From Halieaceae bacterium (GTDB lineage: Bacteria; Pseudomonadota; Gammaproteobacteria; Pseudomonadales; Halieaceae): 64,000 nucleotides of DNA. The notes under the pieces are model-generated. The model was not told the DNA's origin. It searched no databases and saw nothing but the letters and a program-made list of their open reading frames with translations. A program made the position numbers and the translations under genes. Shown here piece after piece: positions 45,140-64,000 of the stretch. The first letter of the stretch is position 1. Each line of letters begins with the position of its first letter. The DNA lies in contig CACNSR010000011.1 in the NCBI GenBank assembly GCA_902623175.1, forward strand, positions 1 to 64,000, in the 5' to 3' direction.

Positions 45140-47296
45140 ATGAAAAACTATATTCAGCGCTCGGGTCTACCGATGCTCGTTTTAGCGGCAATTACAACTG
45201 TGCTACCCAATGTGGCATCTGCTCAACTTGAGGAGGTGCTTGTTACCGCGGAGCGGAGGGAGGCATCCGTTCAGGATGTCCCGCTTGCCGTCAGCGCCTA
45301 CAGCGAAGAAATGATAGAGCGGCTGCAGATTGACGATACGCTGGATCTCATAAACGTGGTGCCCAACCTGTTTGGTGGCAACAATACAGGCTTGGGAACC
45401 GCCAACATGTACTACCTGCGTGCGCAGGGTAACGACGAATCGATCTCTACATTTGACCCACCAGTCGGCACCTACGTTGACGACGTGTACATCACGAGGC
45501 AGAACGTCAACAACGTTGCTTTATTTGATGTTGAGCGGATTGAGGTGCTGCGCGGTCCGCAAGGTACGCTTTACGGGCGCAATACCACGGGCGGTGCGAT
45601 CAGCGTGGTTATGAAAAAGCCGTCTGACACCATGCAGGGTTATGTTGAAGTTGGTGCGGGTAATTGGGGCAAGACCATGGTGCGTGGCAGCATTGATTTG
45701 CCGCTGAGCGACAATGTCCTGACCAAATTCTCCGCCTACTATGTCGACACTGACGGTTACCTTGAGAACCGCACCGATGGCAAAGACTACAACGAGGCAG
45801 ATCTCACAGGTATCCGCGCAGCATTGCGTTGGCTGATTTCGGACTCAATGACCTGGGATATCGCAGTGGATGGTGGAAAGTCAGAAGTGGCCAATATCCA
45901 TGGTTTTTTGGATGGCGATGACCGTTACTCGCTCTCCGTTCTGGGCAGTGGGCTGCCAATGGGCGGCGGCATGTCTGACTACGGTAACGAGGTCGACACG
46001 CTGAATATCACCTCTAATCTCACGTGGGACGCCATGGGCGGCACGGCCAATCTGATTTTTGGTGCGCGCTCGATCGAGCAAGACTTTCTACTGAACTTCC
46101 CTTTCTCGCTCGATTTCTTCCCAGACTTTTTCATCATTGATAATCAGGGCGAGCACGATATGTATTCGGCCGAGTTGAAATGGTCCGGGGACATTATGGA
46201 CGGCCGGGCTTTCTTGCAGACGGGTGTGTATTACATGGACGAGGATAACGAAGTTGATTTCGTCGATTATTTAGACCTTGGGGCGGTTGGTGTTCCTGTT
46301 CCACCGTCCACTGTTTTCACAACTTTGGCCGATCGTGTGCTGAGCAATACCACGGAGAGTTTCGCGGTTTATGCTCAGGCGGATATTAAAGTTGGGGAAA
46401 AGGGCACATTGACATTGGGTGCTCGCTATACCGATGAAGAAAAGACGGTAGATTTTCAAGGTACAGTAAATTCTTCGGAAATGATTGGTCTCGGTATTCC
46501 TCTGTCGCAAAGTGAGCAAGAGGTCACACCACGGATAGCCTATGCGCATAAGTTCAGCGACAACTTGATGATGTATGGTTCAGCAACCAGAGGCTTTAAG
46601 TCAGGAGGTTGGAATGCCAGAGCCTCAAGTTCTGCTGGTTTACAACCTTTTGCGCCGGAGACGATCTGGTCCTACGAGTTGGGTATGCGTGGGGATTGGA
46701 TGGATGGCCGGTTGCGTACGAATGTCACCGCATTCTACTCGGATCTTGAAGATCTGCAGACAACCGCCGCAACGCCTGATGGCCAGTTTTTGACGACCAA
46801 TGCGGGAGCTCTAGAGGTGCCCGGCATTGAGGCCGAAATCACGGCCTTACCTGCGGATAATTGGCAGATTTTCGCGGCGCTGGGTTGGCAGAATCCGAAG
46901 TACAAAGATCTGCCCGGCGGTTGCATAACGCCCAATGCTAACCTTGCTGCTTACGATGTTGATTGTAATGTAGCGGAGCCCAAAAGAAGCCCACACCAGA
47001 CCTATACAGTTGGCACCTCTATTGATTTCTCTCTTGGAGGCCTCACTCTTACACCCAACGTGATGGTGCGTTATCTCGGGGCACAGTACCCGGCAACTCG
47101 GAATCAGGGTTATAACGAGTCCGTTACTTTAATAAATGCTGGCGTGAAGCTCTCGATGGATGGGTCGCCTTGGGAACTAAATCTAGAATGCAAGAACTGC
47201 GGTGACAAAACTTATACTCAGTCGTTCTTGTTTACTCGTTACTACAATATTCCCATGACCTATCTGGCAACGCTAAAGTATAGCTTCGGCGGTTAA
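45140..47296 (+). CDS. TonB-dependent receptor
   Basis: Signal peptide; LEEVLVTAERREASVQDVPLAVSAY; ERIEVLRGPQGTLYGRNTTGGAISVVMKKP; internal ATG at 45140 used. Confidence 0.95.
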   Translation: MKNYIQRSGLPMLVLAAITTVLPNVASAQLEEVLVTAERREASVQDVPLAVSAYSEEMIERLQIDDTLDLINVVPNLFGGNNTGLGTANMYYLRAQGNDESISTFDPPVGTYVDDVYITRQNVNNVALFDVERIEVLRGPQGTLYGRNTTGGAISVVMKKPSDTMQGYVEVGAGNWGKTMVRGSIDLPLSDNVLTKFSAYYVDTDGYLENRTDGKDYNEADLTGIRAALRWLISDSMTWDIAVDGGKSEVANIHGFLDGDDRYSLSVLGSGLPMGGGMSDYGNEVDTLNITSNLTWDAMGGTANLIFGARSIEQDFLLNFPFSLDFFPDFFIIDNQGEHDMYSAELKWSGDIMDGRAFLQTGVYYMDEDNEVDFVDYLDLGAVGVPVPPSTVFTTLADRVLSNTTESFAVYAQADIKVGEKGTLTLGARYTDEEKTVDFQGTVNSSEMIGLGIPLSQSEQEVTPRIAYAHKFSDNLMMYGSATRGFKSGGWNARASSSAGLQPFAPETIWSYELGMRGDWMDGRLRTNVTAFYSDLEDLQTTAATPDGQFLTTNAGALEVPGIEAEITALPADNWQIFAALGWQNPKYKDLPGGCITPNANLAAYDVDCNVAEPKRSPHQTYTVGTSIDFSLGGLTLTPNVMVRYLGAQYPATRNQGYNESVTLINAGVKLSMDGSPWELNLECKNCGDKTYTQSFLFTRYYNIPMTYLATLKYSFGG

Positions 47297-47340
47297 TTTT
47301 CTTTCGCACCGGTCTTAGTCTATTGGCCATTAAAACAATG

Positions 47341-47374
47341 CCCCGCCGGGCCTCTCTCGAGCGGGGTTTTTTTT
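47341..47374 (+). terminator. Rho-independent terminator after TonB receptor
   Basis: CCCCGC...GCGGGG followed by eight T. Confidence 0.75.
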
Positions 47375-47485
47375 GCTATTCGGAAGCTACAACTTGGCGC
47401 TGATGTCTTTGCGGGCAGCGTGAATTTGACCGTGGCATACCCCGGTCGAACCATGATGCGCTAGAGCAATAACCGAGGCGCTGAT

Positions 47486-48298
47486 TTAATGCACTTCCTC
47501 TCCACCACTCACATTGATGGCCTCACCGGTGATGAAACTTGCGTCATCGGAAGCTAAAAAGGCGCATAGTGCTGCCGTATCTTCGGCTTGGCCGATCCTT
47601 TGCAGCGGGATACGATTAGCCATCTCCGCTAGATAGTCCTCCTCTGTCATACCTTTGAAGGCAGAAAAGTAGGCGTTTTGGGCGCTACCCAGGCCCGTTG
47701 TCACATGGTTGGGGCATACTGCATTCACTGTAATGCCCGCGGCACCGTAGTCGATAGCGGCCGTCCGGGTCAGACCGATGACCCCGTGCTTAGCGGCGCA
47801 ATAGGGAGCCATATGTGGAAATCCTGTTTTCGCCGCCTGGCTGGCAATATTTATAATCCTACCCCCGTTTCCGGCGGCCTCCATGTGCGCGGCGGCGGCT
47901 TGAGTGCAGTAAAAGACGCCACTCAATGTGACATCAATCACCAGATTCCATTCATCCGGTGAGATTTCTCGCGTGTCCTTCATGACAAAGCCGATACCGG
48001 CGTTGTTGATCAACACATCCACTCTGCCAAAGTGTTCCATCACTGCATTGAAAAGTTGTTTGACCGACCGGGCTGAGCGGACATCGCAGGCGTGGCTGAG
48101 GACGTCGGCGCCTCGGGAGCGCAAACTTTCGACGACGGCGTCCATTTCGTCGGGTTTGGCAAGGTGACTCGATCCGGAGCCATCCACATCGGTGACAATG
48201 AGCCGGTAACCATCTTCACCCAAGCGACGGAGAATGGCTTCCCCCAAACCGCCGGGTCGCCCGGACCCTGTGCATACAGCGACTTTTCCTTCTGCCAT
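47486..48298 (-). CDS. Short-chain dehydrogenase/reductase (SDR)
   Basis: VAVCTGSGRPGGLGEAI; DVLINNAGIGFV; YCAAKHGVIGLTRTAAIDYGAAGITVNAVCPNHV. Confidence 0.93.
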   Translation of the reverse strand: MAEGKVAVCTGSGRPGGLGEAILRRLGEDGYRLIVTDVDGSGSSHLAKPDEMDAVVESLRSRGADVLSHACDVRSARSVKQLFNAVMEHFGRVDVLINNAGIGFVMKDTREISPDEWNLVIDVTLSGVFYCTQAAAAHMEAAGNGGRIINIASQAAKTGFPHMAPYCAAKHGVIGLTRTAAIDYGAAGITVNAVCPNHVTTGLGSAQNAYFSAFKGMTEEDYLAEMANRIPLQRIGQAEDTAALCAFLASDDASFITGEAINVSGGEEVH

Positions 48299-48392
48299 TA
48301 GCTTTTCTCCTAAGCATTTCTCATCCAGTTTGGCGACTCAGTGGCGGGGTATTGACATTGTCGAATCAATGAAGCCGATTGCGTCTCGGCAA

Positions 48393-49580
48393 TCAGCCAC
48401 GGCGATGCGCCAGCCACCAGCAGAGCACAAAACCGATGCCTGCTCCACCAAAACACACCATGATCAGCGCGGGCTCGGTCTCATAGAGTGTGGCTCCCAA
48501 CCATGAGAAGAAGCCGGCCATGCTCATCCCTACGGAGCTTGAGAGCCCCGCCGCGCTGCCGCTCCAGCGAGGCACAGCGTTTACTGCGCCGAACATCGTC
48601 GCGGGTGTGAGTATTCCTGATAGCAGCATGGAGCTAAAGAGTGGCACTAACACAGCGGCCAGTGTCAGTCCCTGCCAGGCGATCAGCCCTGGCGCGCTGA
48701 GGGACACCAACAACATGCCCAGTACTGCCCGATGCTGCCATCTAGGGATGCCCAGTGATGACAGATGGCTCAGCAGGAAAGAGCCGGACACATACACCAT
48801 CGCAGAACTGGCCCAAACCAGGCTGAAGCCTTGCATCGACAGTCCGAATTGCTCATGAAACAGTACGCTACCCGTGGCCAGCAAGGTGAAGACCATGCCC
48901 TGTAAAAATCCAAAGGCGCCGGCGTGACCCCAGAACCGCATAGAGCGAAGCAATGACAGGTAGCCCTTCAGAGACGCCGTCTGGCCATCATCTTGGCCGA
49001 CAGGTTCATCATGGGGAATTGATTTGACACACAGGAGCAGAATGCCCGCTCCCAATAGAGCCAACACGACGAACACGGATGCCATGCCCAGTAGCGACGC
49101 TAGATAGCCCCCAACAACAGGGGCGATCACTGGCGTGAATCCCATCGCTGCGGTCAATAATGCGAAGGCTTTCAGTGCCTCGTCAGGGGGTAGGTGATCA
49201 CGGATGAGGCCTCGTGCGACGACCGTGCCGACGCCGACGCCAACGGCCTGCATAAAGCGGAGAAAGATCATTGCGCCCAGCGTGTCGGCAAAAATCAGCA
49301 GGATGCTGGCGCCCACGAAAACGGCAAATCCGCCCAACAGCAAGAGTCGCCGGCCGATGCGGTCGGTGATCAATCCAAACAGTGGTTGGCTCACTGCCAG
49401 GCCAATGACGTAAATCGAGAACACGTATTGCAGGTCGCTGACGCTGCGATCGAGAGAAATGCTCAGCATGGGTACCAGGGGCACCATAATGGAGATGCCA
49501 AAGGGTGAGAGGCTGCTGATGGCGGCCAGCAGCCAACGCGAGACGTTCAAAGTGGATGGACTCAAGTGGGCGTCGATCAA
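48393..49580 (-). CDS. MFS transporter (Bcr/CflA-like)
   Basis: QPLFGLITDRIGRRLLLLGGFAVFVGAS; RFMQAVGVGVGTVVARGLIRD; 12-TM-like hydrophobicity. Confidence 0.88.
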   Translation of the reverse strand: MIDAHLSPSTLNVSRWLLAAISSLSPFGISIMVPLVPMLSISLDRSVSDLQYVFSIYVIGLAVSQPLFGLITDRIGRRLLLLGGFAVFVGASILLIFADTLGAMIFLRFMQAVGVGVGTVVARGLIRDHLPPDEALKAFALLTAAMGFTPVIAPVVGGYLASLLGMASVFVVLALLGAGILLLCVKSIPHDEPVGQDDGQTASLKGYLSLLRSMRFWGHAGAFGFLQGMVFTLLATGSVLFHEQFGLSMQGFSLVWASSAMVYVSGSFLLSHLSSLGIPRWQHRAVLGMLLVSLSAPGLIAWQGLTLAAVLVPLFSSMLLSGILTPATMFGAVNAVPRWSGSAAGLSSSVGMSMAGFFSWLGATLYETEPALIMVCFGGAGIGFVLCWWLAHRRG

Positions 49581-50227
49581 AAGGTAATCACGTGAAGCCC
49601 GAGCGCGGCGTTTACGAACAATCCGATCCAGATCACCCAGACATAGCGCCGGACCACACCCATATGGGTGATCATAGCGGCATTGCCGGCATCACTGGGC
49701 CCCTCGCTCACCATACTCGCATAGGCGATGGCAAAAGGCTTGAGCGCAAAGCGAACGGCGATACCGCAGGCCACCAGCACGGCGAACACGGCAATCTTGA
49801 GCGCAATCCACCCGGGCATACCGAGACTCAGTCCGTATGCGCCGCCTCCCAGCAGACCGAGAACCACGGCAAATCTCAGCCGCAGGTCCCAATGCGCAAG
49901 AGAGGGCAGCCGGCGACCCATTGGGCTGTGAATGGCGGCGACCAGCCCCACCCAAATCGCTACCAGCAGCCAACCTCCGAGCGCGATTTCGCTTGGCAGC
50001 AACGTCGGCCAGCGTAACGCCGCAAGGTGACAGCCCGAGCCGAGAATAATCGGCATCGCGATACGCGGCCCCATGTCGCACTCCATCAGGATCTTGAAGG
50101 CGGTCTGACGGGACTCGACGCCGAGGTCGCTGCGCAGTACGTGTCTGCTGGAAAGAAATGTGCCGAGATCGCCCCCCAGCCAATACACCAGAGCCAGTAC
50201 ATGGACATAAAGTAGAAGGGTGTACAT
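49577..50227 (-). CDS. Integral membrane protein, paralog of 42862..43509
   Basis: MYTLLLYVHVLALVYWLGGDLGTFLSSRHVLRSDLGVESRQTAFK; 4-nt overlap with downstream MFS gene. Confidence 0.72.
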   Translation of the reverse strand: MYTLLLYVHVLALVYWLGGDLGTFLSSRHVLRSDLGVESRQTAFKILMECDMGPRIAMPIILGSGCHLAALRWPTLLPSEIALGGWLLVAIWVGLVAAIHSPMGRRLPSLAHWDLRLRFAVVLGLLGGGAYGLSLGMPGWIALKIAVFAVLVACGIAVRFALKPFAIAYASMVSEGPSDAGNAAMITHMGVVRRYVWVIWIGLFVNAALGLHVITF

Positions 50228-50344
50228 GGGTGTGCTCCTCAGCGTGTTGGGACTTGCCGCGACCTTGTCTGGGTCTTAGTCGGCTGCCGCAAATAACCAA
50301 TCTGTTTGCCTTGACACGAAGTTGGCCCAGCGGGCATTTACCGA

Positions 50345-51187
50345 CTACGCCAGCCCTGCAGGGCAAAGCCACTCTATGCGCTCACCGTCGGGTGTCTCTA
50401 TATCGAAACAGTGGAGATCGGGTGTCACTGAGGGTCGCATCTCACCCATGCCACTTGGGGGCGGGCACTCACGACGCAGTGAGAGCGAATGCCATCCGCA
50501 GAGCAGGGCGCTGCCTGAGTCCTGTGGACGCAATACCCATTGGTCCAGTTCAAACAGTTGTCCGGGGCCCAGCGCGATTGGCGCGATGTCGTGGCGGTGC
50601 TCCTCATCCAAACCATTGGAGCGCGACAGAATCGAGACCCGCGCCGGCATGGGTGATGGAGCATCGCACTGCAGGAGCTCTGCATAGAAGGCGATCGATT
50701 GTTGGATATCCGTAACGGCATTGATCATCACGAAGCACTGATTCACTTGGCGCGTCGGAGTTGGCAGCGCGAAGCCCGGTACCTCACCGGATACCTCGGT
50801 GAAGTAAATTAGTTCGCCTGCTGAGCCAGCCACCTGCATCGCGCGAATTTGGTCAGAAAATGACAGTGCAGCCGGCGGGTTCAGCACCGTGAAGGCGGCG
50901 GGCAGTTGCTCGACCAGCATATCCAAGTCCTTTACAAGCACTTCCATCGCGGACCAGCCGGGCGCCGCAAAGGGCGCGGGCACTTCACCCTCCCATTCCA
51001 CCATGGTGAGTGTTTGATATGGATCTTCCGACATCATAATGCTGTGGTGAGGTAGGCCCTTCAGCTTGGGGTCGGACAGTGCAGTCGTTGCAGCAACGCT
51101 CTCGCGTGCGTCCTTATACCCCAGCGCGTGGTAGGCCGCCACAGCCTCTGCCAGCGACGGCACGCGCAAGGTCATATTCTCGATCAT
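50345..51187 (-). CDS. Two-domain VOC (glyoxalase/extradiol dioxygenase) superfamily protein
   Basis: MIENMTLRVPSLAEAVAAYHALGY...PGWSAMEVLVKD...QCFVMINAVTDIQQSIAFYAELLQ. Confidence 0.7.
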   Translation of the reverse strand: MIENMTLRVPSLAEAVAAYHALGYKDARESVAATTALSDPKLKGLPHHSIMMSEDPYQTLTMVEWEGEVPAPFAAPGWSAMEVLVKDLDMLVEQLPAAFTVLNPPAALSFSDQIRAMQVAGSAGELIYFTEVSGEVPGFALPTPTRQVNQCFVMINAVTDIQQSIAFYAELLQCDAPSPMPARVSILSRSNGLDEEHRHDIAPIALGPGQLFELDQWVLRPQDSGSALLCGWHSLSLRRECPPPSGMGEMRPSVTPDLHCFDIETPDGERIEWLCPAGLA

Positions 51188-51212
51188 CGCGGGTCCTCGC
51201 CAATCAACGCGT

Positions 51213-51941
51213 TCACGGTGTGTCCTCAATGGTGAGCGCTGTCAGCTCGTAGTGAGTCTGCATATAGCCTTCGGCTCTTGCTCTGAGAAGCAGATAATCA
51301 TCGTCAGCGGTGCACCATACCTCGTAGGGCGGGTGCTCCTCGGGCAGGTTACCCGCGGTGCCGGTCACCTGAAAGTGCCGGGCCTGAAATTGTCCCGCCG
51401 CCACCTCGATAGTCTCTTCACCAAGATAGACCAGATCGAAATTTGTCACGAAAAAGAAGGGTCCGGTGGCGCCGCGATGGTCGGGCGAGGTCAGGAACAC
51501 GTTCTTCAATGAGTGAATTCCAGAGCCTTGTTCCAGCGGATAAAGCCGCATGAGCAGCGCATCGCCGATGATGGGGTGGCTCTGCAGCCAGCCCACCTGA
51601 CCCTCGGTCTCAAGCTCTTGACTGATCCGCCCATCGCGCGCGTTGAAGGTTTCACACTCGGCGTAACCCTTGGCAAAGCGCATCCAGCCCGAGCCTTCGA
51701 ACTGTCCGCCAACCGATAGCCGCACCGAGCAGTCAATCGGGCTGGAGTCGGCATGCCGCAGCGCGAGGCAGACGTCTCGCGTCACCTTGGGGGCGTCGTC
51801 AATCTCACAGTGAGCGAGCAGTACATCCGTGCCGTCTGGCTGGCAGCTGAGCGAGAAAACCTCGCGTCCTCTCACCTCACCCATCCGTTCCGGTTTGCGG
51901 CTGGTGTACTCGATTGCTCCTCGGATAAGCTTGTGTCCCAT
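51213..51941 (-). CDS. Hypothetical protein (DUF3108-like appearance)
   Basis: Intact 242-aa ORF; EVWCTADDDYLLLRARAEGYMQTHYELTALTIE. Confidence 0.6.
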   Translation of the reverse strand: MGHKLIRGAIEYTSRKPERMGEVRGREVFSLSCQPDGTDVLLAHCEIDDAPKVTRDVCLALRHADSSPIDCSVRLSVGGQFEGSGWMRFAKGYAECETFNARDGRISQELETEGQVGWLQSHPIIGDALLMRLYPLEQGSGIHSLKNVFLTSPDHRGATGPFFFVTNFDLVYLGEETIEVAAGQFQARHFQVTGTAGNLPEEHPPYEVWCTADDDYLLLRARAEGYMQTHYELTALTIEDTP

Positions 51942-52052: not shown

Positions 52053-52718
52053 ATGGAAACCAGTGACCTCACCGCGCGCCAGATTTACCAGCAGATCAAG
52101 GACAACCCCAGCCGTGCGCGCTTCGGGTTTGGCAAGAAAGCCATCCTCGTCAACGTGGATCCACAAAAGGCTTATACCCGCACAGACCTGTTCAAAACCG
52201 CCTACGAGACCGATCCCAGGCAGCTGGACTACGTCAATCAGTTGGCGACTGCGTTTCGGGCGCTGGATTGGCCGGTAGTCTGGACTTATGTGGCGTTCAT
52301 GGAATCGGGCGAGGATTGCGGCATCTGGGGTACCCGTACCGATACCCCAGACTCTCTGCAGAACATCAAGTTCGGGTCCGAGCGTGCCGAGTTTGATGAT
52401 CGCCTTGAGATCAATCAGGAGAAGGACGTTATCTATTGCAAAAAGATGCCCTCGGCTTTTTTCGAGACCGCACTACAGTCACTTTGCGTGTGGCACCAGG
52501 TAGACACCCTGATCATTACCGGTGGTTCCACCAGCGGCTGCATCCGCGCCACGGCAGTAGATTCCTTGTCGCGGGGGTACCGAACGATCGTCCCCGAGGA
52601 GTGTGTTGCGGATAAACACGAGAGCTACCATTTTGCGAACCTCACCGACTTGGCCATTAAATATGCAGATGTACTGGGTGTGAGTGAGGTGCTCGACTGG
52701 CTTTCTCAGCAGGGCTGA
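52053..52718 (+). CDS. Isochorismatase-like cysteine hydrolase (N-carbamoylsarcosine amidase/maleamate amidase-like)
   Basis: Asp-Lys-Cys pattern: KAILVNVDPQKAYT, DVIYCKKMPSAFFET, DTLIITGGSTSGCIRATAVDSLSRGYRTIVPEECV. Confidence 0.88.
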   Translation: METSDLTARQIYQQIKDNPSRARFGFGKKAILVNVDPQKAYTRTDLFKTAYETDPRQLDYVNQLATAFRALDWPVVWTYVAFMESGEDCGIWGTRTDTPDSLQNIKFGSERAEFDDRLEINQEKDVIYCKKMPSAFFETALQSLCVWHQVDTLIITGGSTSGCIRATAVDSLSRGYRTIVPEECVADKHESYHFANLTDLAIKYADVLGVSEVLDWLSQQG

Positions 52719-52720
52719 AT

Positions 52721-53644
52721 ATGAGTGGTAGCGCACAAAACGCCGAGCTCGATCTTTACGATTACAGCGCTTACGAGGGTCGGCCAAAAATAGAATGGCC
52801 CAGTGGGGCGCGCCTTGCGTTTTGGGTGGCCCCCAATATCGAGTTCTACGAACTTGATGCCCCGGTCAATCCGCATCGCAAGCCCTGGCCGCATCCTTAC
52901 CCCCCGGTGCCCGGTTACAGCATCCGTGACTATGGCAACCGGGTCGGTCACCAGCGTCAGATGGCGGTGCTTGATAAATACGATGTGCGCGGCTCGATCA
53001 GTTTGTCCGCTGCGCTTTGTGAACACCACCCCGAAATTATCTCACTGTGTGCAGAGCGTGACTGGGAGTTTTTCAGCCACGGTATCTACAACACCCGCTA
53101 CACCTATGGCCTCACGGAGGACCAGGAGCGCGAGATGATTGAGGATGCCATGGCAACGATCGAGCGCGCGGTCGGTCAGCGGCCCGCAGGCTATTTGGCG
53201 CCGGCGTTGTCGCACTCCAACCATACCATTGATCTCTTTGCCGAGGCGGGCGGGCGTTACACCTGCGATCTGTTCCACGATGATCAGCCTACTTGGGTGA
53301 AGACCCGCAGCGGCAAGCCGTTTGTGTCGATACCGTATTCGCTGGAACTCAATGACACCATTGCCTACGTGGTGCAGAAGATGGAGCCGAGACGTTACGG
53401 CGAGATTATTCGCCGCGCTTTTGATCAGCTCTATGCAGAGGGCGCGGAGAGCGGCACGGTCATGTGTATCCCGACCCACAACTATCAGGTCAGTTGCCCG
53501 CATCGACTGCGCGCCTTTGAAGAGGCGCTCGAATACATCACCGGCCATTCCGATGTGTGGGTCACCACCGGCAGGGAGATCGCCGAGTATTCACTCTCCT
53601 ATCTTCAGGAGCAGATTGGCGGCGGTGCGGAGTCGGCGAAATGA
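52721..53644 (+). CDS. Polysaccharide deacetylase-fold hydrolase, PuuE allantoinase-like
   Basis: GYSIRDYGNRVGHQRQMAVLDKYDVRGSISLSAALCEHHPEIISLCAERDWEFFSHGIYN. Confidence 0.82.
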   Translation: MSGSAQNAELDLYDYSAYEGRPKIEWPSGARLAFWVAPNIEFYELDAPVNPHRKPWPHPYPPVPGYSIRDYGNRVGHQRQMAVLDKYDVRGSISLSAALCEHHPEIISLCAERDWEFFSHGIYNTRYTYGLTEDQEREMIEDAMATIERAVGQRPAGYLAPALSHSNHTIDLFAEAGGRYTCDLFHDDQPTWVKTRSGKPFVSIPYSLELNDTIAYVVQKMEPRRYGEIIRRAFDQLYAEGAESGTVMCIPTHNYQVSCPHRLRAFEEALEYITGHSDVWVTTGREIAEYSLSYLQEQIGGGAESAK

Positions 53645-54558: not shown

Positions 54559-54837
54559 TCGTTATGTCTCCTTGGTCGTACTTAAAAAGGCGACAGAAAC
54601 AACGGTAACCCAATAGAAATGAGCGAGGCGCTGGCCGAATGTGAGGTTTTGCTCCAGCTGATTCTGCGCTTGCTGATTCGGTCCGTGCGCCAGCACTCGG
54701 AACGGCGTGATGCTCGACAGTGGAGCGGACTTCATCATTGGAGATGCGCTTTACGCCGTTACCGCGTTTGCCGGGCGTGACCAGCCTCCGATCACAAAAC
54801 CGTGGTAACTTCGGCACACTCTAACGGGGGCTCCACT

Positions 54838-55344: not shown

Positions 55345-55605
55345 ACAAAACAGGCCGGGCCATTCCCCCCTGCTCAGTTTCTCCCAAGATAAGTTAATCA
55401 TTGGTCGTTGCACTCTGCCGCGGTGCTCGAGCCTTCGGCAATAGCTCAATAACGCGTAGCCAGCGGAGCATAGCTAGTGCGGTTATGCCAATCAGTTTCG
55501 CCCCCACAAAATACAAAATGATCGGCGTTGCAGGGGCCCCCTAGCGCGTTAAAACGCTACAAAAGCTGAACACTCAAGGCCGTCTAGTATGTAATACGCC
55601 TATTT

Positions 55606-55655: not shown

Positions 55656-56426
55656 ATGAACGACATTTTCAGCTCGCACTTGATTGGCCAAGTATCCAAG
55701 TCCTCGCCGACGCCGCTCTATCACCAGCTCTATTCCCTACTGAAGGCAAGAATCCTTGACGGCACTCTGGCGCTGGGCCTGCGGCTACCTCCTGAGGAGC
55801 AGTTGGCAAACCTGTTCAAGGTGTCGCGTATCACGGCCAAGCGCGCGATGGATGATTTAGCCAGCGAGGAGTTGGTCGAGAGACGGCGTGGTCGCGGCAC
55901 CCACGTAATTTATCAGTACTCTCCGAAGCCCGTTCAAGCACCGCTGACAGGTATGCTGCAGGAAATCGAAAGTATGGCGCGTAACTCTTCGGCGCAGATT
56001 CTCGATTACGGTATGCGCGTGCCGCCCTGGGCGATCCGTGAGGACCTGCGACTCGCCGACGGCGAGACGGCCTTGCACCTGTTGCGGGTCCGCGAGCGGG
56101 ACGGCATGAAGTTTGGACACTACAACAGCTGGACTGCAGGAGTCGATATCCCCGCAGACCCAGCGATTTTCGAAAATACCCCGCGACTGAGTTATTTCCG
56201 GCAACAGGGTCTTGAAGTCAGCCATGTGACCCAAACCCTGTCGGCTGTCTCTGCCGATGCGCCGGTGGCGGATGCCTTGGGTGTGGCTGAGGGAAGTCCG
56301 CTACTGAGTCTGACCAGACGCTCGTATCAAAAGACGGGCGCGGGTGACGAACAAATTCTGGATTTTCTAGAGGTGCTGTATAACCCCGCTCATTTCCAGT
56401 ACTCCATGGATCTCACACTAAACTGA
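55656..56426 (+). CDS. GntR family transcriptional regulator (HutC/UTRA-type)
   Basis: PLYHQLYSLLKARILDGTLALGLRLPPEEQLANLFKVSRITAKRAMDDLASEELVERRRGRGTHV plus UTRA-like C-terminal domain. Confidence 0.93.
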   Translation: MNDIFSSHLIGQVSKSSPTPLYHQLYSLLKARILDGTLALGLRLPPEEQLANLFKVSRITAKRAMDDLASEELVERRRGRGTHVIYQYSPKPVQAPLTGMLQEIESMARNSSAQILDYGMRVPPWAIREDLRLADGETALHLLRVRERDGMKFGHYNSWTAGVDIPADPAIFENTPRLSYFRQQGLEVSHVTQTLSAVSADAPVADALGVAEGSPLLSLTRRSYQKTGAGDEQILDFLEVLYNPAHFQYSMDLTLN

Positions 56427-56430: not shown

Positions 56431-57480
56431 TCAGATCAGCCCGGCTTTTTTAAGGCCTTCGATCACCGCTGATTGCTGCCCCATAAAGTGCGACCGGTCT
56501 GGCACCGTAATAGCGCCATCTGCATTGACCAAGTTGTCTTCGGGATAAAAATGCTGCTGATCGTACGTTGAGCGGAACAGCGACAGGCGCTGTCGGGCCA
56601 GCAGGTTGGTCATGGCGGGTTTACTGCGGGCTTCACGCAATCGTTCGATATCGATGAGCGCATGGCCCACCATCGACTCGCCGGTATACGCCTCGGTCAT
56701 CACCTGCCCTTTAAAGTCGACGATCTGCGAGTGACCCTGAGTCGAGTTCTGCGGCACGGGTGAGTTGTGGATCGCCGACGTATTGCTGGAGACCACGTAA
56801 CACATGTTCTCGTAGGCCCGCGCGCACTTGGCGACGTTCTTTGGTGTAGGGAGGGGGCTACCGACTTCACTCGAGGAGTGCAGGATCACCTCTGCGCCAC
56901 GCGTTGCCAATGCGCGCGCTACTTCCGGATACAGGATCTCCTCTGAGGCGACGCAGGCCAGTCTGCCAAGCGGTGTATCGGCGACGGGGAAGAGCCCTTC
57001 GTCTCCATATACGTCGCAATATTGCGACAGCACGTCGTGGGGCGTTGGTGCAAACATCGAGATCAAGCGGCGATAGCGGAGGATGACCGCACCTTCATCA
57101 CTGATGATAAAGCTGGTTTGGAAGTAGAGATCGGGAAAATGCGGATCGAGCTCGTAAGCGTTGCCTGAAAGATATATACCTCGGCTGCGGGCGATCTCGC
57201 CCATGCGCGCATACTCGGCGCCATCCATCGCGATGCAGGCTTTGGTCCGCCACTCGGGAATCGATTCCCCCATGGGAAAGCTGGTCAAGAAATATTCCGG
57301 CAGTACCACCAGGCGCAGGGTGTCTCCACTGAATGTGCCGATGAAACCCTTACTTCCCGCAATCAACTGGTCGACACGATCCAACGTGCTCGACATTGCC
57401 TGCTCGACTGCCGCCCGATCAGTGAGACCGTTCACAGCATGGCAGTCCATCTGTAGCGCAAGTGCGGAATAGGGTGTCAT
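56431..57480 (-). CDS. Carbon-nitrogen hydrolase (nitrilase superfamily) protein with non-canonical catalytic residues
   Basis: VVLPEYF, VILRYRRLISMFAPTPHDVLSQY, GRLACVASEEILYPEVARALATRGAEVILHSSSE. Confidence 0.82.
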   Translation of the reverse strand: MTPYSALALQMDCHAVNGLTDRAAVEQAMSSTLDRVDQLIAGSKGFIGTFSGDTLRLVVLPEYFLTSFPMGESIPEWRTKACIAMDGAEYARMGEIARSRGIYLSGNAYELDPHFPDLYFQTSFIISDEGAVILRYRRLISMFAPTPHDVLSQYCDVYGDEGLFPVADTPLGRLACVASEEILYPEVARALATRGAEVILHSSSEVGSPLPTPKNVAKCARAYENMCYVVSSNTSAIHNSPVPQNSTQGHSQIVDFKGQVMTEAYTGESMVGHALIDIERLREARSKPAMTNLLARQRLSLFRSTYDQQHFYPEDNLVNADGAITVPDRSHFMGQQSAVIEGLKKAGLI

Positions 57481-57486: not shown

Positions 57487-57792
57487 TTACTCCAGCGGCG
57501 TCTGCTTCAGGCCGTCTACTAGCATGACGCGGAATTCGCCGGTACCGGCTCGCAAAGGCTTTGCCGCCTCGTAGGCATCGCTGTACCAAAACGCTTTCGC
57601 CTGATCCGCCGAAGGCCAACGGTGCATCACCAATCTTGTCGCACCCCAGTCGCCCTCAAGCGGCGTCTGCTCGCCGCCAAGGACTAGATACTCGCCGCCG
57701 AATTCAGCCACGATGTCGGGAACCACTTTTGCGTAGGCACCAAACTTTTCCGGGTCGTCGAGGACGGCTTCAACGATGATATAGGCGGTCAT
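57487..57792 (-). CDS. DUF1330 domain protein
   Basis: YIIVEAVLDDPEKFGAYAKVVPDIVAEFGGEYLVLGGEQTPLEGDWGATRLVMHRWPSADQAKAFWYSDAYEAAKPLR. Confidence 0.85.
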   Translation of the reverse strand: MTAYIIVEAVLDDPEKFGAYAKVVPDIVAEFGGEYLVLGGEQTPLEGDWGATRLVMHRWPSADQAKAFWYSDAYEAAKPLRAGTGEFRVMLVDGLKQTPLE

Positions 57793-57889: not shown

Positions 57890-59455
57890 TCAGGACAAGC
57901 CGAGCGCGCCGGGATTCATGATGCCATCGGGGTCGAGAGCGGCCTTGATGCCGTTGACCAGGTCCAGTGCCGGCGCCTTAAGTGTGCTGTGATAGTGGTA
58001 GGCCTTGCCCAATTGCATGTGGCTTGCGCCTTCCGCGGACAATACGTCAACCACTTCGCTCTTGACCTTATACACCGCATCCCAGGCATCGGGGACAGCA
58101 TCAAACTGATTGAGTCGGGCAAGGTGGTCAGGCTCAAGGCTATGCTTGTGTAGCGCATTCAGCTCGTCGGGCCAGAAGAAAACCGGCTCGAGTACGGTGA
58201 TCTGCTCACTGACCACGGCAATCAAATAGCCTGTCTCAATGTTGAACTGCACCAGTGTGTCGCGGTTGCGTTCATACACCGCCTCTACCTCGGCCAGTAC
58301 CGCCTCACCGCGCGAGTGGGGTACCAGACCATGTACCGGTAGCCAGCGCTCACCCTCTGCGCCCACCATATTGTTGACCGGGCCGAAGGGGTTGGCCGCG
58401 AGTATCCGTGGGATGCTGTCGGCTAGTTCTTTGCCGCCTTCTGCTGAACAAATCTCACGAATTCGCTTTACCTGATGGTCGGCTTCCGCTTCTGTTCGGC
58501 CTTCGCTGATCGTGAACATAGCCCATTCAACGTCGTCCATGAAGCGTCGGCCGGAGAGTGCGATCTTGGCGCCCTGTTTGATCTTGTTCACGATGCCGGA
58601 TTCGTTTTGCAGCACACCCGTCAGTTGCTGGGCATCGGCCGCCAGGCTGGCACGCTTCATGCGCTGATGCTGCAGGTAGGGGTCGAATCCAAAGCACTCG
58701 GTGGTCAGGGACTCGCGAGAGATCTGGGCCATGGCCCGGAGCATGGGACCCGACTCCTCGAAGGCGAAGCTGGTATACCCTTTGGCGCCGGCGAGCGGCA
58801 CCAGTGGCAGCGTGGCGCGCACCTTGATACCGAGGGCACCGCAGTCTCCGAGGAACACGCCCGTCAGGTCAGGACCAAAGTGTCGCGTGAAAGGTGCTGC
58901 GCGCTGTTGAGCCGCCGAACCCGTCTCCAGCAGATCGCCTTTGCCAGTGACAACACTGACCGAGAGGACGTTGTCAGCGGCGGTGCCGCTCTGACCGCTG
59001 CCCCAAAAAATGCTGTTCTGGGAGAGGCCACCCCCAACCGTCGCGTAGCGTCCGGACAGCGTGCCCCAATAGGCGGTGCGCACACCGAGTGGCGCGAGGT
59101 GCTCATACAGCTTTTGCCAGCTGCACCCGGCCTCGACCGTTACATAACGATCTTCCAGATTGACCTCGACAATGGCGTCCATGCTGGCCATATCGATCAA
59201 CACGCTATCGGGCGCGCTGGCGATGTAACCGCTGGTATAGCTCATACCGCCCCCGCGGGTGACAATTGGCGTGCCGCGCTCCAGGCAGGCCCGCACCAGC
59301 GCCTGCACTTCATCGATGTTGCGCGGCCGCACAACCGCACAGATAGGCGGTCCTACAGTGAAGACATCCTGAGAGTACAGCGTTATCTGCTCGGGATCCG
59401 TGGTGATGATCTCGGCAGGTAGTAATTGGGTGATGGTGGATACCACTGCGTTCAT
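57890..59455 (-). CDS. FAD-binding oxidoreductase (VAO/FAD-linked oxidase family)
   Basis: AVVRPRNIDEVQALVRACLERGTPIVTRGGGMSYTSGYIASAPDSVLIDMASMD; terminal ALDPDGIMNPGAL. Confidence 0.88.
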   Translation of the reverse strand: MNAVVSTITQLLPAEIITTDPEQITLYSQDVFTVGPPICAVVRPRNIDEVQALVRACLERGTPIVTRGGGMSYTSGYIASAPDSVLIDMASMDAIVEVNLEDRYVTVEAGCSWQKLYEHLAPLGVRTAYWGTLSGRYATVGGGLSQNSIFWGSGQSGTAADNVLSVSVVTGKGDLLETGSAAQQRAAPFTRHFGPDLTGVFLGDCGALGIKVRATLPLVPLAGAKGYTSFAFEESGPMLRAMAQISRESLTTECFGFDPYLQHQRMKRASLAADAQQLTGVLQNESGIVNKIKQGAKIALSGRRFMDDVEWAMFTISEGRTEAEADHQVKRIREICSAEGGKELADSIPRILAANPFGPVNNMVGAEGERWLPVHGLVPHSRGEAVLAEVEAVYERNRDTLVQFNIETGYLIAVVSEQITVLEPVFFWPDELNALHKHSLEPDHLARLNQFDAVPDAWDAVYKVKSEVVDVLSAEGASHMQLGKAYHYHSTLKAPALDLVNGIKAALDPDGIMNPGALGLS

Positions 59456-60865
59456 TCAGCGCCTCCTGCCCCATATCAGTAATACACTATGAGCCGCAAA
59501 GGGTAACAGACGTTCGATGATGTCGCCCGGCGCATTAGGCAGCAGTGACAGCGCCACCGTGAGACCAAAACCTATCCAGATACCCGTGACGCGAACGCTG
59601 TCCGGGATCTGCCAGCCCAGCAGACGAGCAAACAGCGTGGGCCCTAGCGCTGCCCCTAGCGCGCTCCACGCAAACAACACCCGAGAGAAGATAGGTGCTG
59701 GCAGAAAGAGCGCTACCAATACGGCAAGTAGCACGACAATGAACACTGCCCATCGCCCTCGACGTAATACCCGTGCGCTACCTTGCAGTGCCTCATCGGT
59801 GAGGTCGTGGGACAGTGTGCTGGCGCACACTAGGAGCTGGCTGTCGGCGGTGGACATGATCGCCGAGAGCACTGCGGCGAGCAGAAGACCTGCGAGAACC
59901 GGGGGCAGCACCTGTTCTGACAGGGCAAAAAAGACCTGTTCATTGTTGTTCAGTGAATCGAAGATGCCACGCCCCACCAGTCCCGTCAGGACCATCCCCG
60001 AGAAGACAACGAGATACCAAATGAGGGTGATGCGTGCTGCGGTGCGCCGCGCACGATGATCCTTGAGCGCCATAAAGCGTACCATCAGGTGCGGTTGCCC
60101 AAATGTACCGAGACTGATGGCCAAGGACCCAATGGCAAATCCGATAGCCGACAAGGTCGCCGCATCGGTTCCCCCATTGTTTTGGTTGCCAAGTTCGATG
60201 AGCTCAATAAGGGAGGCAAACCCTCCCGTCGAGATCACGGTTCCCATTGGTAGCGTGATGGCTGCCAGGCACATAACGACACCTTGTAGGGTGTCGGTCA
60301 GACTGACCGCCCAATAGCCGCCCAGCCAGGTGTAAATCAGAATGACCAGTGCGCCGCCTACAATCGCCAGCGTATCGCTGACGGCAAATACTTTGGTGAC
60401 GGTGAGCCCGGCGCCTTGGAACTGCGCGGCGACGTAAAAAACAAAGGCAATCAGAATAACGACGGCCGCGGATCGCACGAGGGCGTTGCTGCGGGGGTTA
60501 TCGTTCGGCTCGCTGAGATAGTCTATGAAAGTAGTCAGCTGCCGCTGATGACTGGCTTCCAGTAGCCTCGGCGCGATCCACCACCAGGCCACGACCATTC
60601 CAGACAGGCTTCCCAAAGCGACCCAAATAACGGATGGACCCATAGCAAAGGCAGCGCCGCTCACCCCCAGTAAGGTCCACGCTGAGGAGGCACTGGCGCT
60701 GTAGGAAATGCCGGTGATCCAGGGACCCACCTCGCGGGCACCCAGAAAAAAATCGCTGCTGGAGCGAGTGCGTCGCGACGCCCAGAGGCCTACTCCCAGT
60801 AGCAGACATTGGTAAGCCAAGACGGCACTCAATACGATGGTGCTGACGTCGTCGGTCGTATTCAC
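59456..60865 (-). CDS. Sodium:solute symporter family transporter
   Basis: SSDFFLGAREVGPWITGISYSASASSAWTLLGVSGAAFAMG; ADSQLLVCASTLSHDL; GTG start chosen. Confidence 0.88.
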   Translation of the reverse strand: MNTTDDVSTIVLSAVLAYQCLLLGVGLWASRRTRSSSDFFLGAREVGPWITGISYSASASSAWTLLGVSGAAFAMGPSVIWVALGSLSGMVVAWWWIAPRLLEASHQRQLTTFIDYLSEPNDNPRSNALVRSAAVVILIAFVFYVAAQFQGAGLTVTKVFAVSDTLAIVGGALVILIYTWLGGYWAVSLTDTLQGVVMCLAAITLPMGTVISTGGFASLIELIELGNQNNGGTDAATLSAIGFAIGSLAISLGTFGQPHLMVRFMALKDHRARRTAARITLIWYLVVFSGMVLTGLVGRGIFDSLNNNEQVFFALSEQVLPPVLAGLLLAAVLSAIMSTADSQLLVCASTLSHDLTDEALQGSARVLRRGRWAVFIVVLLAVLVALFLPAPIFSRVLFAWSALGAALGPTLFARLLGWQIPDSVRVTGIWIGFGLTVALSLLPNAPGDIIERLLPFAAHSVLLIWGRRR

Positions 60866-60930
60866 GATAGCGCGCCTCCCCTCCACTTGGCGGTATGATG
60901 CCACTCAGTCAGAGATAAAAGGGGGCTCCG

Positions 60931-61866
60931 TTGAGAGAGATTGGCTTCTCCCACGTGGTAATCACTACCTCGAACGCCCCACAGCTGGGCGGGTTTTTTG
61001 CCGCCCTGGGGTGGCACTTGCACAGCACCGCGCTCTTCGCCGATGCGGCTGACTTTTGGGGCGCAGACATGACCCAAGTGGCCGAGCGCTGGGTCGCGCC
61101 CAGTGGGGCATGTGAGGTTGTATTGCTCCCCGTTACGAACACAACTGCGGTGCTTCGCCCTCTGGATTGCGCGGTGACCACTCCCGGTGGGCTGTTTGAT
61201 ATCAACATGCGCACCTGGGACAGCGACTGGGCGCGCGAGTTTTTGCACACCCATGGTTGGCGTGAGCTGGTTCCGGCAGTGGCTTGGCAGTTCGGCGAGG
61301 TGCAGACGAGCGAGGCCCTCTACATTCAGGATGACGGCATCGTGATGGCCGTGATGCAGCGCCTGAGCCCACCCCTTGAAGGTATCGAGTTTGACCGTAT
61401 GAGCGATGTCTTTAACTCCACACAGATGGTGAGCAATGTCGAGACGACGCTCGCTTTTCTCAAAGTCTTGGGATTCGAGCGGTTCATTGACCATGCGGGC
61501 CCACTGCCCGGGGAGGGCCCCCGGGTATTGCAGCTTGAGCAGCACCCCGCTGACACCGCCGGCATCCACCTGAGCATCGCCCACCCGGAGGCAGCGATGT
61601 CAGGTTCGATCGAACTAATTGATGTGCCGGAACACCCCCTACCTTGCCTTCCGGTGCCCAGCACGGGCGGCCGCGGCCTGCGCGCACTCGCCATCCCCTG
61701 TCATGATGTGTCGGAGACCTATGCCGCAGTTAACGATAGCGAGTGGTCGGCACAGGTCTGTCAGCCACTGGCAAAGCGCAACCTGCCGGGACTGCTCAGC
61801 GGTGAGTGCTTCGCCGTGACCGGGCCCGATGGCGGGCGACTCGACCTTTATCAATTAGCACAGTGA
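60931..61866 (+). CDS. Two-domain VOC superfamily protein (TTG start)
   Basis: GFSHVVITTSNAPQLGGFFAALGWHLHSTALF; second module QMVSNVETTLAFLKVLGFERF. Confidence 0.72.
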   Translation: MREIGFSHVVITTSNAPQLGGFFAALGWHLHSTALFADAADFWGADMTQVAERWVAPSGACEVVLLPVTNTTAVLRPLDCAVTTPGGLFDINMRTWDSDWAREFLHTHGWRELVPAVAWQFGEVQTSEALYIQDDGIVMAVMQRLSPPLEGIEFDRMSDVFNSTQMVSNVETTLAFLKVLGFERFIDHAGPLPGEGPRVLQLEQHPADTAGIHLSIAHPEAAMSGSIELIDVPEHPLPCLPVPSTGGRGLRALAIPCHDVSETYAAVNDSEWSAQVCQPLAKRNLPGLLSGECFAVTGPDGGRLDLYQLAQ

Positions 61867-61876
61867 GCATAACCTT

Positions 61877-62776
61877 ATGTTGAAGTCGATCTTGATGGTC
61901 TGGGTGTTGGCACAGAATCTTGCGCTGACTCAGGAAGCCTATGAGGACTATCTGGGTTATCGATCTGTCAATGAGGGTGTGATGTCTGCCGAACTGGCAG
62001 CCGCGATCGGTCGACCTGAGCTCGCGGAGAGACGCTTTGTGACTATGATGCCGCGCTCGGGCCCACAGGTAGGTCTGCGTCTCGTCGAAGGAGATGTTTC
62101 CGGATATGCGCCAATGCAGCGAGTAGGGTGGAGCGCCATTGAGCTGCTGGTGCAAGACCCCAAACTACTCGAGACCGAGCTCGACGGTTCTGCGTTTAGA
62201 CATTTGAAGGGCCCCGATTTTTTGACGGAGCAAAAAAACATTCTTGCGATGCAGGTGACCGGCCCCAATCGGGAGCTGTTTTATCTCACGCACATGATTG
62301 ATCCCTCGAAGTCCTTTTTAAGGCCTCAGCCCAGCCAGGAACCTGTAGGTCACACCTTTATCATGGTCACGGGCAGCCTGGATCTGGAGGCCAGTCTAGG
62401 GTTTTGGCGACGGCACTTTGATAACAGTGTCGTCGGTCCTATTCCTTATCGCATTGGCGTGCTGTCTGATGCCTACGATCTGCCCGAGGACACGTTGCAC
62501 TCTCTGGCGGTGGTGTCTATGTCGGATGGCTATGGCATTGAAATCGATCAATACCCTGACCAGGCGACCGCCGTGCCTGCTCCCGAGGGTGAGCGGGGGG
62601 GTGTGATATTGGTCAGCTTGAGTGTCGACCCCGAGGGTCTTAAAGCGCCTCTGCCGTGGCGGCTGCCTTATATCGATACCGCCGGAGCGGTCGAGGGTGG
62701 GGTGATTACCTTGCCATCTGGTGCGCCCATAGAGATCTCACTGACTACCGCGATGTTGCCAGCGCCTACTCATTAG
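61877..62776 (+). CDS. Two-domain VOC superfamily protein, related to 50345..51187
   Basis: YEDYLGYRSVNEGVMSAELAAAIGRPELAERRFVTMMPRSG...VGWSAIELLVQD...HTFIMVTGSLDLEASLGFWRRHF. Confidence 0.7.
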   Translation: MLKSILMVWVLAQNLALTQEAYEDYLGYRSVNEGVMSAELAAAIGRPELAERRFVTMMPRSGPQVGLRLVEGDVSGYAPMQRVGWSAIELLVQDPKLLETELDGSAFRHLKGPDFLTEQKNILAMQVTGPNRELFYLTHMIDPSKSFLRPQPSQEPVGHTFIMVTGSLDLEASLGFWRRHFDNSVVGPIPYRIGVLSDAYDLPEDTLHSLAVVSMSDGYGIEIDQYPDQATAVPAPEGERGGVILVSLSVDPEGLKAPLPWRLPYIDTAGAVEGGVITLPSGAPIEISLTTAMLPAPTH

Positions 62777-62861
62777 ACTTATTGTTATACTTATATATCT
62801 TTTACAGGGTCTTGCCCCGATTCAGGCGCAGTGAGGCCCACGAGGGGTTAACGGGTTCGCT

Positions 62862-64000
62862 GTGGGCACCACTCTCTTTGACAAGCTGTGGCAAGAACAT
62901 GAGGTGACGACGCTGTCGGAGCGTCAATCCCTGCTTTATATCGATCGTATTTTTCTACACGAGCGAACCGGCAGCGTTGCCTTGAACGGCTTGCTTGAGA
63001 GACAGCGCTCGGTGCGCAGACGCGAGCATGCGTTCTGCACGATGGACCACATTGTCGATACCTTGCCGGGGCGTGGCGACGATACGCTGATGCCCAGTGG
63101 CCGGGATTTCATCGTCGCAACCCGACACGCGGCTCAGGAAACCGGTATTCAACTGTTTGACATCGCCGATGCTGATCAGGGCATCGTGCATGTGATCTCG
63201 CCCGAGCTTGGCATCGCACTGCCCGGGTTGTCACTCATCTGCCCGGACAGCCACACCTGTACTTTGGGCGGGCTCGGTGCGCTCGCCTGGGGCGTGGGTT
63301 CGACCGAGGCCGAGCATGCGCTGGCGACCAGTACACTGCGCGTCACCCGACCTCAGACGATGCGCGTCAGCTTCGCAGGGCTGCTCGGTGAGGGCGTCTC
63401 CGCAAAGGATCTTATTCTTTTCACTATCCGTGAGCTGTCAGCCTCCGGGGGTGCGGGTTATGCCATCGAGTTCGCCGGGCCCGCTATCGATGCTCTGCCG
63501 GTCGAAGCCCGGCTCACGCTCTGCAATATGACCACTGAGCTCTCTGCCTTTACCGGGCTGATCGCGGCCGATCGAAAAGTGCTCGACTATTGTGTGGGCC
63601 GCCGCTACGCGCCGCAGGGTGAGCTTTGGGATCAGGCCGCCCAACACTGGCAGTCGTTGCGCAGTGATGAGGGTGCAGTGTTTAATCAGGAACACAGCTT
63701 CGAGATTGGGTCACTCAAACCCCAGCTCAGTTGGGGCACCAGTCCACAACACTGTGTCGACTGGGATGACGCAATCCCCCACGCCAGTGACGCCCCCGAC
63801 GCGTTGGCGTCGGCGGCCTGGCAGCGTGCGCAAGATTATATGGGAGTGACTTCCGGCAGTCAGTTGTCCGATTACGCCCTCGACGCGGCGTTTATTGGAT
63901 CGTGCACCAATAGTCGATTGTCTGACTTGCAGCTGGCGGCCGCCTATCTGGAGCGCACCGGCCACAAGGTTGCAAAAGGGGTCAAGGCGCTCTGCGTGCC
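62862..64000 (+). CDS. Aconitase-superfamily large subunit (3-isopropylmalate dehydratase LeuC-like), GTG start, runs off window end
   Basis: Own translation: VGTTLFDKLWQEHEVTTLSERQSLLYIDRIFLHERTGSVALNGLLERQRSVRRREHAFCTMDHIVDT...CPDSHTCTLGGLGALAWGVGSTEAEHAL...FIGSCTNSRLSDLQLAA; no ORF in the supplied track on this frame. Confidence 0.9.
   Translation, partial: MGTTLFDKLWQEHEVTTLSERQSLLYIDRIFLHERTGSVALNGLLERQRSVRRREHAFCTMDHIVDTLPGRGDDTLMPSGRDFIVATRHAAQETGIQLFDIADADQGIVHVISPELGIALPGLSLICPDSHTCTLGGLGALAWGVGSTEAEHALATSTLRVTRPQTMRVSFAGLLGEGVSAKDLILFTIRELSASGGAGYAIEFAGPAIDALPVEARLTLCNMTTELSAFTGLIAADRKVLDYCVGRRYAPQGELWDQAAQHWQSLRSDEGAVFNQEHSFEIGSLKPQLSWGTSPQHCVDWDDAIPHASDAPDALASAAWQRAQDYMGVTSGSQLSDYALDAAFIGSCTNSRLSDLQLAAAYLERTGHKVAKGVKALCV

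Follow-up and report, generated by a model that had tools for sequence, protein, structure and literature searches.

The DNA from position 45140 onward in a 64,000-nucleotide stretch of the Halieaceae contig CACNSR010000011.1 (bases 1-64000 of a contig reaching 75,230; termed the window) carries a catabolic locus that is predicted, with a probability of about 0.58, to encode the lower part of a pathway for alkyl-substituted five-membered cyclic imides, most likely maleimides derived from tetrapyrroles. The candidate substrates are most likely methyl-ethyl-maleimide, methyl-vinyl-maleimide and hematinic acid from oxidative chlorophyll or heme breakdown, of which all three are known products (PMC7318184). 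The source is a 2.39-Mb metagenome-assembled genome (MAG), 85% complete, which is assigned to Luminiphilus (Halieaceae), the closest relatives of the hydrolase PUUE1 bearing the names Luminiphilus or Halieaceae. The genes of the predicted pathway are as follows, with positions above 64000 lying beyond the window on the contig.

52053-52718, plus strand: ISO, isochorismatase-family amidohydrolase (PF00857, 1.7e-27), predicted half-amidase of the maleamate type
52721-53644, plus strand: PUUE1, PuuE/cyclic-imide-hydrolase-like (PF01522, 1.3e-8), predicted to open the imide ring
53641-54558, plus strand: PUUE2, second PuuE-like hydrolase adjoining PUUE1 (PF01522, 2.9e-6; alignment)
62862-64268, plus strand, past the window end at 64000: LEUC, LeuC-type large subunit (PF00330, 3.8e-105), predicted substituted-maleate hydratase
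64265-64897, beyond the window: LEUD
64894-66108, minus strand, beyond the window: CAIB, CaiB CoA-transferase (PF02515, 2e-107)
67214-68158, beyond the window: HMGL, HMG-CoA-lyase homolog (PDB 6nds, 3e-69)

We infer each reaction, the order of the steps and the substrate from these assignments. A PuuE-type hydrolase would convert the cyclic imide into a half-amide, from which ISO would release ammonia to leave a substituted maleate; LeuCD would hydrate this to a substituted malate, the CaiB enzyme would turn the malate into its CoA thioester and the HMG-CoA-lyase homolog would cleave the thioester, giving an acyl-CoA and a 2-oxo acid. From hematinic acid one would expect 2-oxoglutarate and propionyl-CoA, or pyruvate and glutaryl-CoA. 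The TonB receptor, MFS transporter and sodium symporter of the locus may take up the fragments, the GntR protein may regulate the genes, and the SDR, FAD oxidase, VOC, MDR and ALDH proteins may act on side chains or on larger fragments. The sequence of a LeuCD-type hydratase and then either a malate-type lyase or a CoA-transferase with an HMG-lyase is most readily understood for a substituted maleate and malate. Together with the imide and half-amide hydrolases, it leads to an alkyl-substituted maleimide as the predicted substrate. Tetrapyrroles would be the obvious natural source of such compounds.

The catalytic residues of ISO are directly visible in the window protein, where the D36-K130-C163 triad is intact, and they are invariant across 12 aligned sequences. 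Its closest PDB entries are 4l07/4l08 and N-carbamoylsarcosine amidohydrolase (profile matches of 3.6e-41 for 4l07 and 5.5e-38 for the latter), and 4l07 is a maleamate amidase. Relatives of ISO act on half-amides or on carbamoyl groups. PUUE1 has the polysaccharide-deacetylase (NodB) fold related to PuuE, matching PuuE allantoinase 3cl6 at 5.6e-39 in addition to PF01522. The HxxxH metal site of HpPgdA is incomplete, with the second His absent from PUUE1 (SHGIYNT) and PUUE2 (GHGWNM) and likewise from PuuE. PuuE-like hydrolases of the polysaccharide-deacetylase fold include the cyclic imide hydrolases HxnM and Pseudomonas putida CIH (PMC9304392).

The nearest relatives of known structure include PuuE allantoinase and N-carbamoylsarcosine amidohydrolase, and the PuuE proteins might instead open a hydantoin and ISO remove the carbamoyl group, as in creatinine and purine breakdown. 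Such a hydantoin or ureide route is improbable, as LeuCD and the malate-type lyases would have no place in it, and allantoicase, encoded by 82/392 genomes of the order, occurs in only 2/24 PUUE1-positive ones, where 5.0 would be expected. PUUE1 and PUUE2 score 124 and 92 bits against the allantoinase PuuE equivalog TIGR03212, below its cut-off of 424.6 bits, and the allantoin/purine route was rejected on these low scores together with the missing co-occurrence of allantoicase. The likeness of ISO to 4l07 would also suit a maleamate amidase acting after ring cleavage in a nicotinate-type pyridine route, in which the PuuE proteins would serve as deformylases or imidases. HxnM, a PuuE-fold enzyme, does act in fungal nicotinate breakdown (PMC9304392). 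This route is very improbable, since plain maleate would not need CaiB and HMGL or a lyase step, and neither a pyridine hydroxylase nor a 2,5-dihydroxypyridine dioxygenase is seen in the locus annotations. The nicotinate pathway proper, to which the original prediction had likened single steps, was accordingly set aside as not encoded at the locus, pyridine ring-hydroxylating and ring-opening enzymes being missing from those annotations.

Both hydratase subunits are present, with the Fe-S cysteine motifs SCTNSR and CSMC intact. LEUC carries the signature CSMCFFAGGE / CPDSHT and not the canonical CSMCLAMN / CGDSHT, and leucine biosynthesis (3-isopropylmalate isomerase) was rejected as its role because it forms a separate class by motif and a canonical LeuC paralog lies elsewhere in the genome (G000:C2:158767). 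In HMGL, which resembles HMG-CoA lyase (PDB 6nds), the motifs GPRDGLQ, HLHNTRG and GGCPFAPGASGN are intact. CAIB is a CaiB/BaiF family III CoA-transferase with DITGG at the catalytic Asp region and resembles succinate-HMG CoA-transferase.

The gene set is conserved together across species and genera, so that co-conservation, the absence of which had been named as grounds for abandoning the original prediction, is observed directly in synteny and in ortholog co-occurrence far above chance. In genomes of the same genus the whole block is syntenic; elsewhere in the family, other genera keep only ISO-PUUE1-PUUE2-GntR, HMGL, CAIB, LEUD-LEUC, VOC1 and DUFa. Within the set, the conserved core is ISO-PUUE1-PUUE2-LeuCD-lyase, with GntR (present in 49/92 loci), CaiB, VOC1 and the beta-barrel protein DUFa often attached, and the TonB, SDR, MFS, SSS and nitrilase-fold genes are lineage-specific. 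Orthologs of PUUE1, HMGL and LEUC occupy nearly the same genomes among 147 relatives (pairwise Fisher P of 6e-16, 1e-18 and 2e-18, values that ignore phylogeny), and the exceptions mostly have the appearance of contig breaks or frameshifts in MAGs. In one genome (G089) HMGL and LEUC lie ~300 kb away from PUUE1, and this separation, together with synteny in rearranged order, argues against simple hitch-hiking.

When genomes were scanned with the alignment of PUUE1, 80 loci were retained out of a longer list, many of them truncated; they include loci of Halomonas, Marinobacter, Alteromonas, Microbulbifer and Rhodocyclaceae. Of these 80, 74 have a recognisable PUUE2 and 62 an ISO of ≥55% identity; a LeuC homolog is present in 29 of the 47 loci that reach 20 kb, and an HMGL or ICL-type lyase likewise in 29. 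That the locus merely brings together adjoining but functionally unrelated catabolic genes is hardly credible. It consists of several divergent transcription units rather than one operon and its accessory genes vary between genera, as this explanation would have it, but the gene triad ISO-PUUE1-PUUE2 recurs with LeuCD and a lyase in gamma-, beta- and alphaproteobacteria in rearranged order, and the co-occurrence of orthologs (P <1e-15) has already largely refuted it.

The cleavage enzyme differs between lineages. The Halomonas/Marinobacter unit is arranged as TRAP transporter-LeuD-LeuC-GntR facing lyase-ISO-PUUE1-PUUE2-FAD oxidoreductase, with a methylisocitrate/2,3-dimethylmalate-lyase-type enzyme in place of CaiB and HMGL; this lyase is closest to methylisocitrate lyase and petal death protein and more distantly related to 2,3-dimethylmalate lyase. 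Burkholderia plantarii has the lyase variant and Acidiphilium the HMGL/CaiB variant, and plasmids of Sphingomonas JE1 and Sphingobium TomTYG65 hold both routes side by side, each with its own LeuCD. A tomatine or steroid route, suggested by the TomTYG65 plasmid, was dropped, the tomatine paper making no mention of these genes. The LeuC class follows the cleavage enzyme, as would be the case if the hydratase and the cleavage enzyme worked one after the other: all 6 loci with HMGL/CAIB orthologs have class T1 (CSMCFFAGGE), which comprises 14 loci of which the others are mostly incomplete, and class T2 (canonical-like) has such orthologs in 0/20 loci and an ICL-type lyase in 16/20. LeuC proteins of L063-L142 and L058-L060 fall into two or three motif classes (CSMCFFAGGE, CSMCVGMN, CGACAGYG).

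The link to tetrapyrroles was written down as an idea, and hematinic acid and maleimides were searched, before any tetrapyrrole gene was looked for. In Pseudohalioglobus/Halioglobus the neighbours of the gene triad include a homolog of red chlorophyll catabolite reductase (RCCR; PF06405, 1.8e-15), a chlorophyllase-like hydrolase (PF07224, 3.7e-13) and a Rieske oxygenase of the VanA type, and Microbulbifer loci likewise carry an RCCR homolog. PF06405 scores above its cut-off in 11/392 genomes of the order and 0/14 controls, a PUUE1 ortholog is found in 24/392, and the 11 RCCR-positive genomes all fall within these 24 (P = 3.4e-15). They span five families, giving a family-level P of 5e-4 for an approximate count of 47 families. 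In 8/11 of them the nearest RCCR gene on the same contig lies 6-49 kb from PUUE1, with a chance of ~1e-9 under a model of uniform position. One such genome (G076) has orthologs of ISO, PUUE1/2, GntR, the nitrilase-fold protein, DUF1330, FAD oxidase, SSS, LEUC, CAIB, HMGL, MDR and ALDH, and holds the gene set of the window and RCCR, Rieske and adjacent alpha/beta hydrolase genes within ~70 kb. That hydrolase family (d3) stays below the cut-off of the Pfam chlorophyllase model, which hydrolases in L130 and L171 pass, and the island protein d7 has weak below-cut-off matches to both the bilin reductase and the RCCR models. The large islands L171, L172, L174 and L184 (G325, G184, G076 and G313) contain several RCCR-type reductases, an Amdase-family protein and FAD monooxygenases, as well as two-domain CN-hydrolase-like, lipocalin-like or DUF1838-type proteins.

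The same imide-to-malate chemistry could serve an imide unrelated to tetrapyrroles, such as alkylsuccinimides, citraconimide or a secondary metabolite. The core is widespread in bacteria in which no RCCR is seen at the locus, including the TRAP-transporter versions of Halomonas and plasmid copies of soil bacteria. This is nevertheless unlikely, as every RCCR-positive genome carries the core, mostly nearby, and cleavage after hydration implies a substituted malate, which dialkylmaleimides fit better than plain maleimide or succinimide.

Several observations weigh against tetrapyrrole-derived maleimides as the substrates. Neither RCCR nor a Rieske ortholog is found in the window's 85% complete genome, and RCCR is likewise missing from the sampled relatives of the genus, so that the tetrapyrrole link holds only by association through relatives and the claim for Luminiphilus is that of a lower pathway, supported by orthology, for fragments made elsewhere. 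RCCR is missing from 13/24 PUUE1-positive genomes, and other imides may therefore be the substrate in some lineages. The name RCCR comes from a Pfam match within the bilin-reductase superfamily, and another bilin could be the target. ISO is almost equally close to N-carbamoylsarcosine amidohydrolase and to 4l07, and the sequences of PUUE1 and PUUE2, which lack the second metal His of HpPgdA, are nearer to allantoinase PuuE than to the metal-dependent imide hydrolases. The VOC, MEM, DUFa and nitrilase-fold proteins have no assigned role in the predicted pathway.

Comparison with known systems places the predicted pathway among several partial relatives. Plant PAO/phyllobilin breakdown uses chlorophyllase, the Rieske enzyme pheophorbide a oxygenase and RCCR, and the islands of the relatives hold RCCR homologs, Rieske oxygenases and chlorophyllase-like hydrolases. 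In plants, however, phyllobilins are the stored products, the Rieske protein of the bacteria resembles VanA and is not of the plant PaO domain type, and this upper part is absent in Luminiphilus. Nicotinate catabolism, with an aerobic maleamate amidase or an anaerobic dimethylmaleate hydratase and 2,3-dimethylmalate lyase, shares the isochorismatase-type amidase, the LeuCD-type hydratase and the malate-type lyase, whereas the present locus has no pyridine ring chemistry and cleavage in Halieaceae would proceed via the CaiB and HMG-CoA-lyase homologs. The itaconate/citramalate CoA route likewise leads from a substituted dicarboxylate through a CoA thioester to an oxo acid and an acyl-CoA; the lyase here is HMGL-type, and the LeuCD hydratase would act ahead of CoA activation. 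Cyclic-imide catabolism by P. putida CIH and Aspergillus HxnM also runs from imide through half-amide to dicarboxylate with an opener of the PuuE/polysaccharide-deacetylase fold (PMC9304392). The present locus differs in its tandem PUUE1/PUUE2 pair without that metal His, and LeuCD hydration and carbon-carbon cleavage would follow. The pre-PcyA/bilin reductase gene clusters of heterotrophs likewise place members of the bilin-reductase superfamily in non-photosynthetic bacteria (PMC10151467), but those encode bilin-binding globins, V4R and Fe-S proteins, whereas RCCR homologs here accompany imide, maleate and malate enzymes.

The remaining genes of the locus, including those that the contig adds beyond 64000, are listed below.

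45140-47296, plus strand: TonB-dependent receptor (PF00593, 1.7e-36; PF07715, 2.9e-16), syntenic within the genus, candidate for outer-membrane uptake of the inferred substrate
47486-48298, minus strand: SDR oxidoreductase (PF13561, 4e-58)
48393-49580, minus strand: MFS transporter (PF07690, 1.9e-38)
49577-50227, minus strand: MEM, small membrane protein with the motif H-x5-YWLGG-x2-G, no Pfam match, aligned with relatives
50345-51190, minus strand: VOC1, VOC-fold protein (AlphaFold2 pLDDT 91; Foldseek to glyoxalase I, E 2e-10)
51213-51941, minus strand: DUFa, beta-barrel-like, DUF3108/DUF1849-like (AlphaFold2 pLDDT 91.5; Foldseek to 6ntr, DUF1849, E 8e-7)
54571-54708, minus strand: remnant of a second MEM-type gene (tblastn 65% over 46 amino acids, 2.8e-18)
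54838-55344, plus strand: DUF3598-like open reading frame (PF12204, 0.0024, below cut-off), not conserved at this position in relatives
55656-56426, plus strand: GntR/UTRA (HutC-type) regulator (PF00392, 7.7e-19; PF07702, 1.1e-17)
56431-57480, minus strand: nitrilase-fold protein (NIT, CN-hydrolase; PF00795, 3.2e-29)
57487-57792, minus strand: DUF1330 protein (PF07045, 3.9e-26)
57890-59455, minus strand: FAD-linked oxidase, GlcD/VAO type (FAD_binding_4; PF01565, 2.8e-33)
59456-60904, minus strand: sodium:solute symporter (SSS; PF00474, 1.7e-64)
60931-61866, plus strand: VOCa, VOC1-like (alignment with the other VOC proteins)
61877-62776, plus strand: VOCb, VOC1-like (alignment with the other VOC proteins)
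66176-67183, beyond the window: MDR
68151-69605, beyond the window: ALDH
69617-69904, beyond the window: ABM protein

The gene content thus confirms the observation behind the original prediction, all of whose listed genes are found at their positions, with Pfam support for all but the VOC proteins and the small membrane protein; its list omitted the beta-barrel protein DUFa and the DUF3598-like reading frame. The small hydratase subunit that it looked for past 64000, where LeuC is open at the window edge, is LeuD, accompanied on the contig by CaiB, HMGL, MDR, ALDH and ABM. Its interpretation is partly supported, being right in kind: the analogy to cyclic-imide/amide hydrolases combined with a dimethylmaleate-type hydratase fits the gene content, and where it could name no matching pathway, a specific route can now be predicted, with maleimides derived from tetrapyrroles as the likely class of substrate.

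The three VOC proteins have no Pfam match yet align with one another, and the AlphaFold2 model of VOC1 matches glyoxalase I and other VOC structures at E ~1e-10, which upholds the VOC label. A VOC ring-cleavage dioxygenase is not claimed; although the fold is confirmed, the alignment does not clearly show the metal ligands usual for such enzymes. DUFa is conserved alongside the core in Halieaceae and sphingomonads, and relatives of MEM adjoin RCCR genes in L171 and L174. The nitrilase-fold protein is not to be taken for an ordinary amidase: Glu is kept, with Ser (SEEILYPE) and Arg at the expected positions of the Cys nucleophile and Lys, invariant in 14/14 sequences (orthologs from L063-L124 and L038, catalytic positions placed by motif spacing). 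This family may represent an unusual enzyme or a member of the superfamily without catalytic function. The second MEM-type gene survives as fragments at 54571-54708 and 55439-55501 (minus strand); relatives have it whole, lying between PUUE2 and GntR, and the DUF3598-like reading frame occupies its place in this genome.

Further observations concern the surroundings of the gene triad elsewhere. A genome of the same genus (L046, G053:C1:1888000-1907999) has another ISO-PUUE pair, which is divergent (35% and 33% identity) and accompanied by an SDR. Opposite the triad in Microbulbifer/Alteromonas (L094, L118, L137, L140) lie a homolog of HapK (REDY-like, prodigiosin cluster), an SDR, an HpcH aldolase and a third PuuE-like protein. 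In L072, L082, L117 and L059 the triad has hydantoinase A/B (oxoprolinase-type) pairs in its vicinity, which may perform ATP-dependent lactam opening. L096 and L133, titled Bifidobacterium breve and Saprospiraceae, have a proteobacterial-type triad at 73-77% identity and are probably mis-binned contigs. Elsewhere in the window, at 33728-36103, this marine Halieaceae genome encodes a reprolysin-like (M12B-type) metallopeptidase with a Big_7 domain.

Chlorophyll is made and destroyed at ~10^12 kg per year (PMC7318184). No description of bacterial genes carrying its pyrrole rings to central metabolism was found in the open-access literature, most subscription journals lying outside the search, and in that literature nothing was found on pJE1 or on this gene combination. 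In a wider and more tentative picture, which falls somewhat short of even odds, marine heterotrophs would mineralise chlorophyll with a chlorophyllase-like hydrolase, a Rieske oxygenase and RCCR-type reductases, by which the macrocycle would be opened and reduced; the monopyrrole imides so formed would reach central metabolism through PuuE, ISO, LeuCD and either CaiB with HMG-lyase or an enzyme of the methylisocitrate-lyase type. Luminiphilus would have the lower half only, scavenging fragments produced by light, oxidants or other organisms. Compared with the original prediction, the result is a stepwise predicted pathway with a testable substrate class and an unexpected link to chlorophyll breakdown enzymes. 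The LeuC class could serve substrate prediction in annotation. If the pathway is as predicted, its enzymes would be named, their genes could mark pigment turnover in metagenomes from seawater, and the RCCR homologs of heterotrophic bacteria would be tied to a catabolic role.

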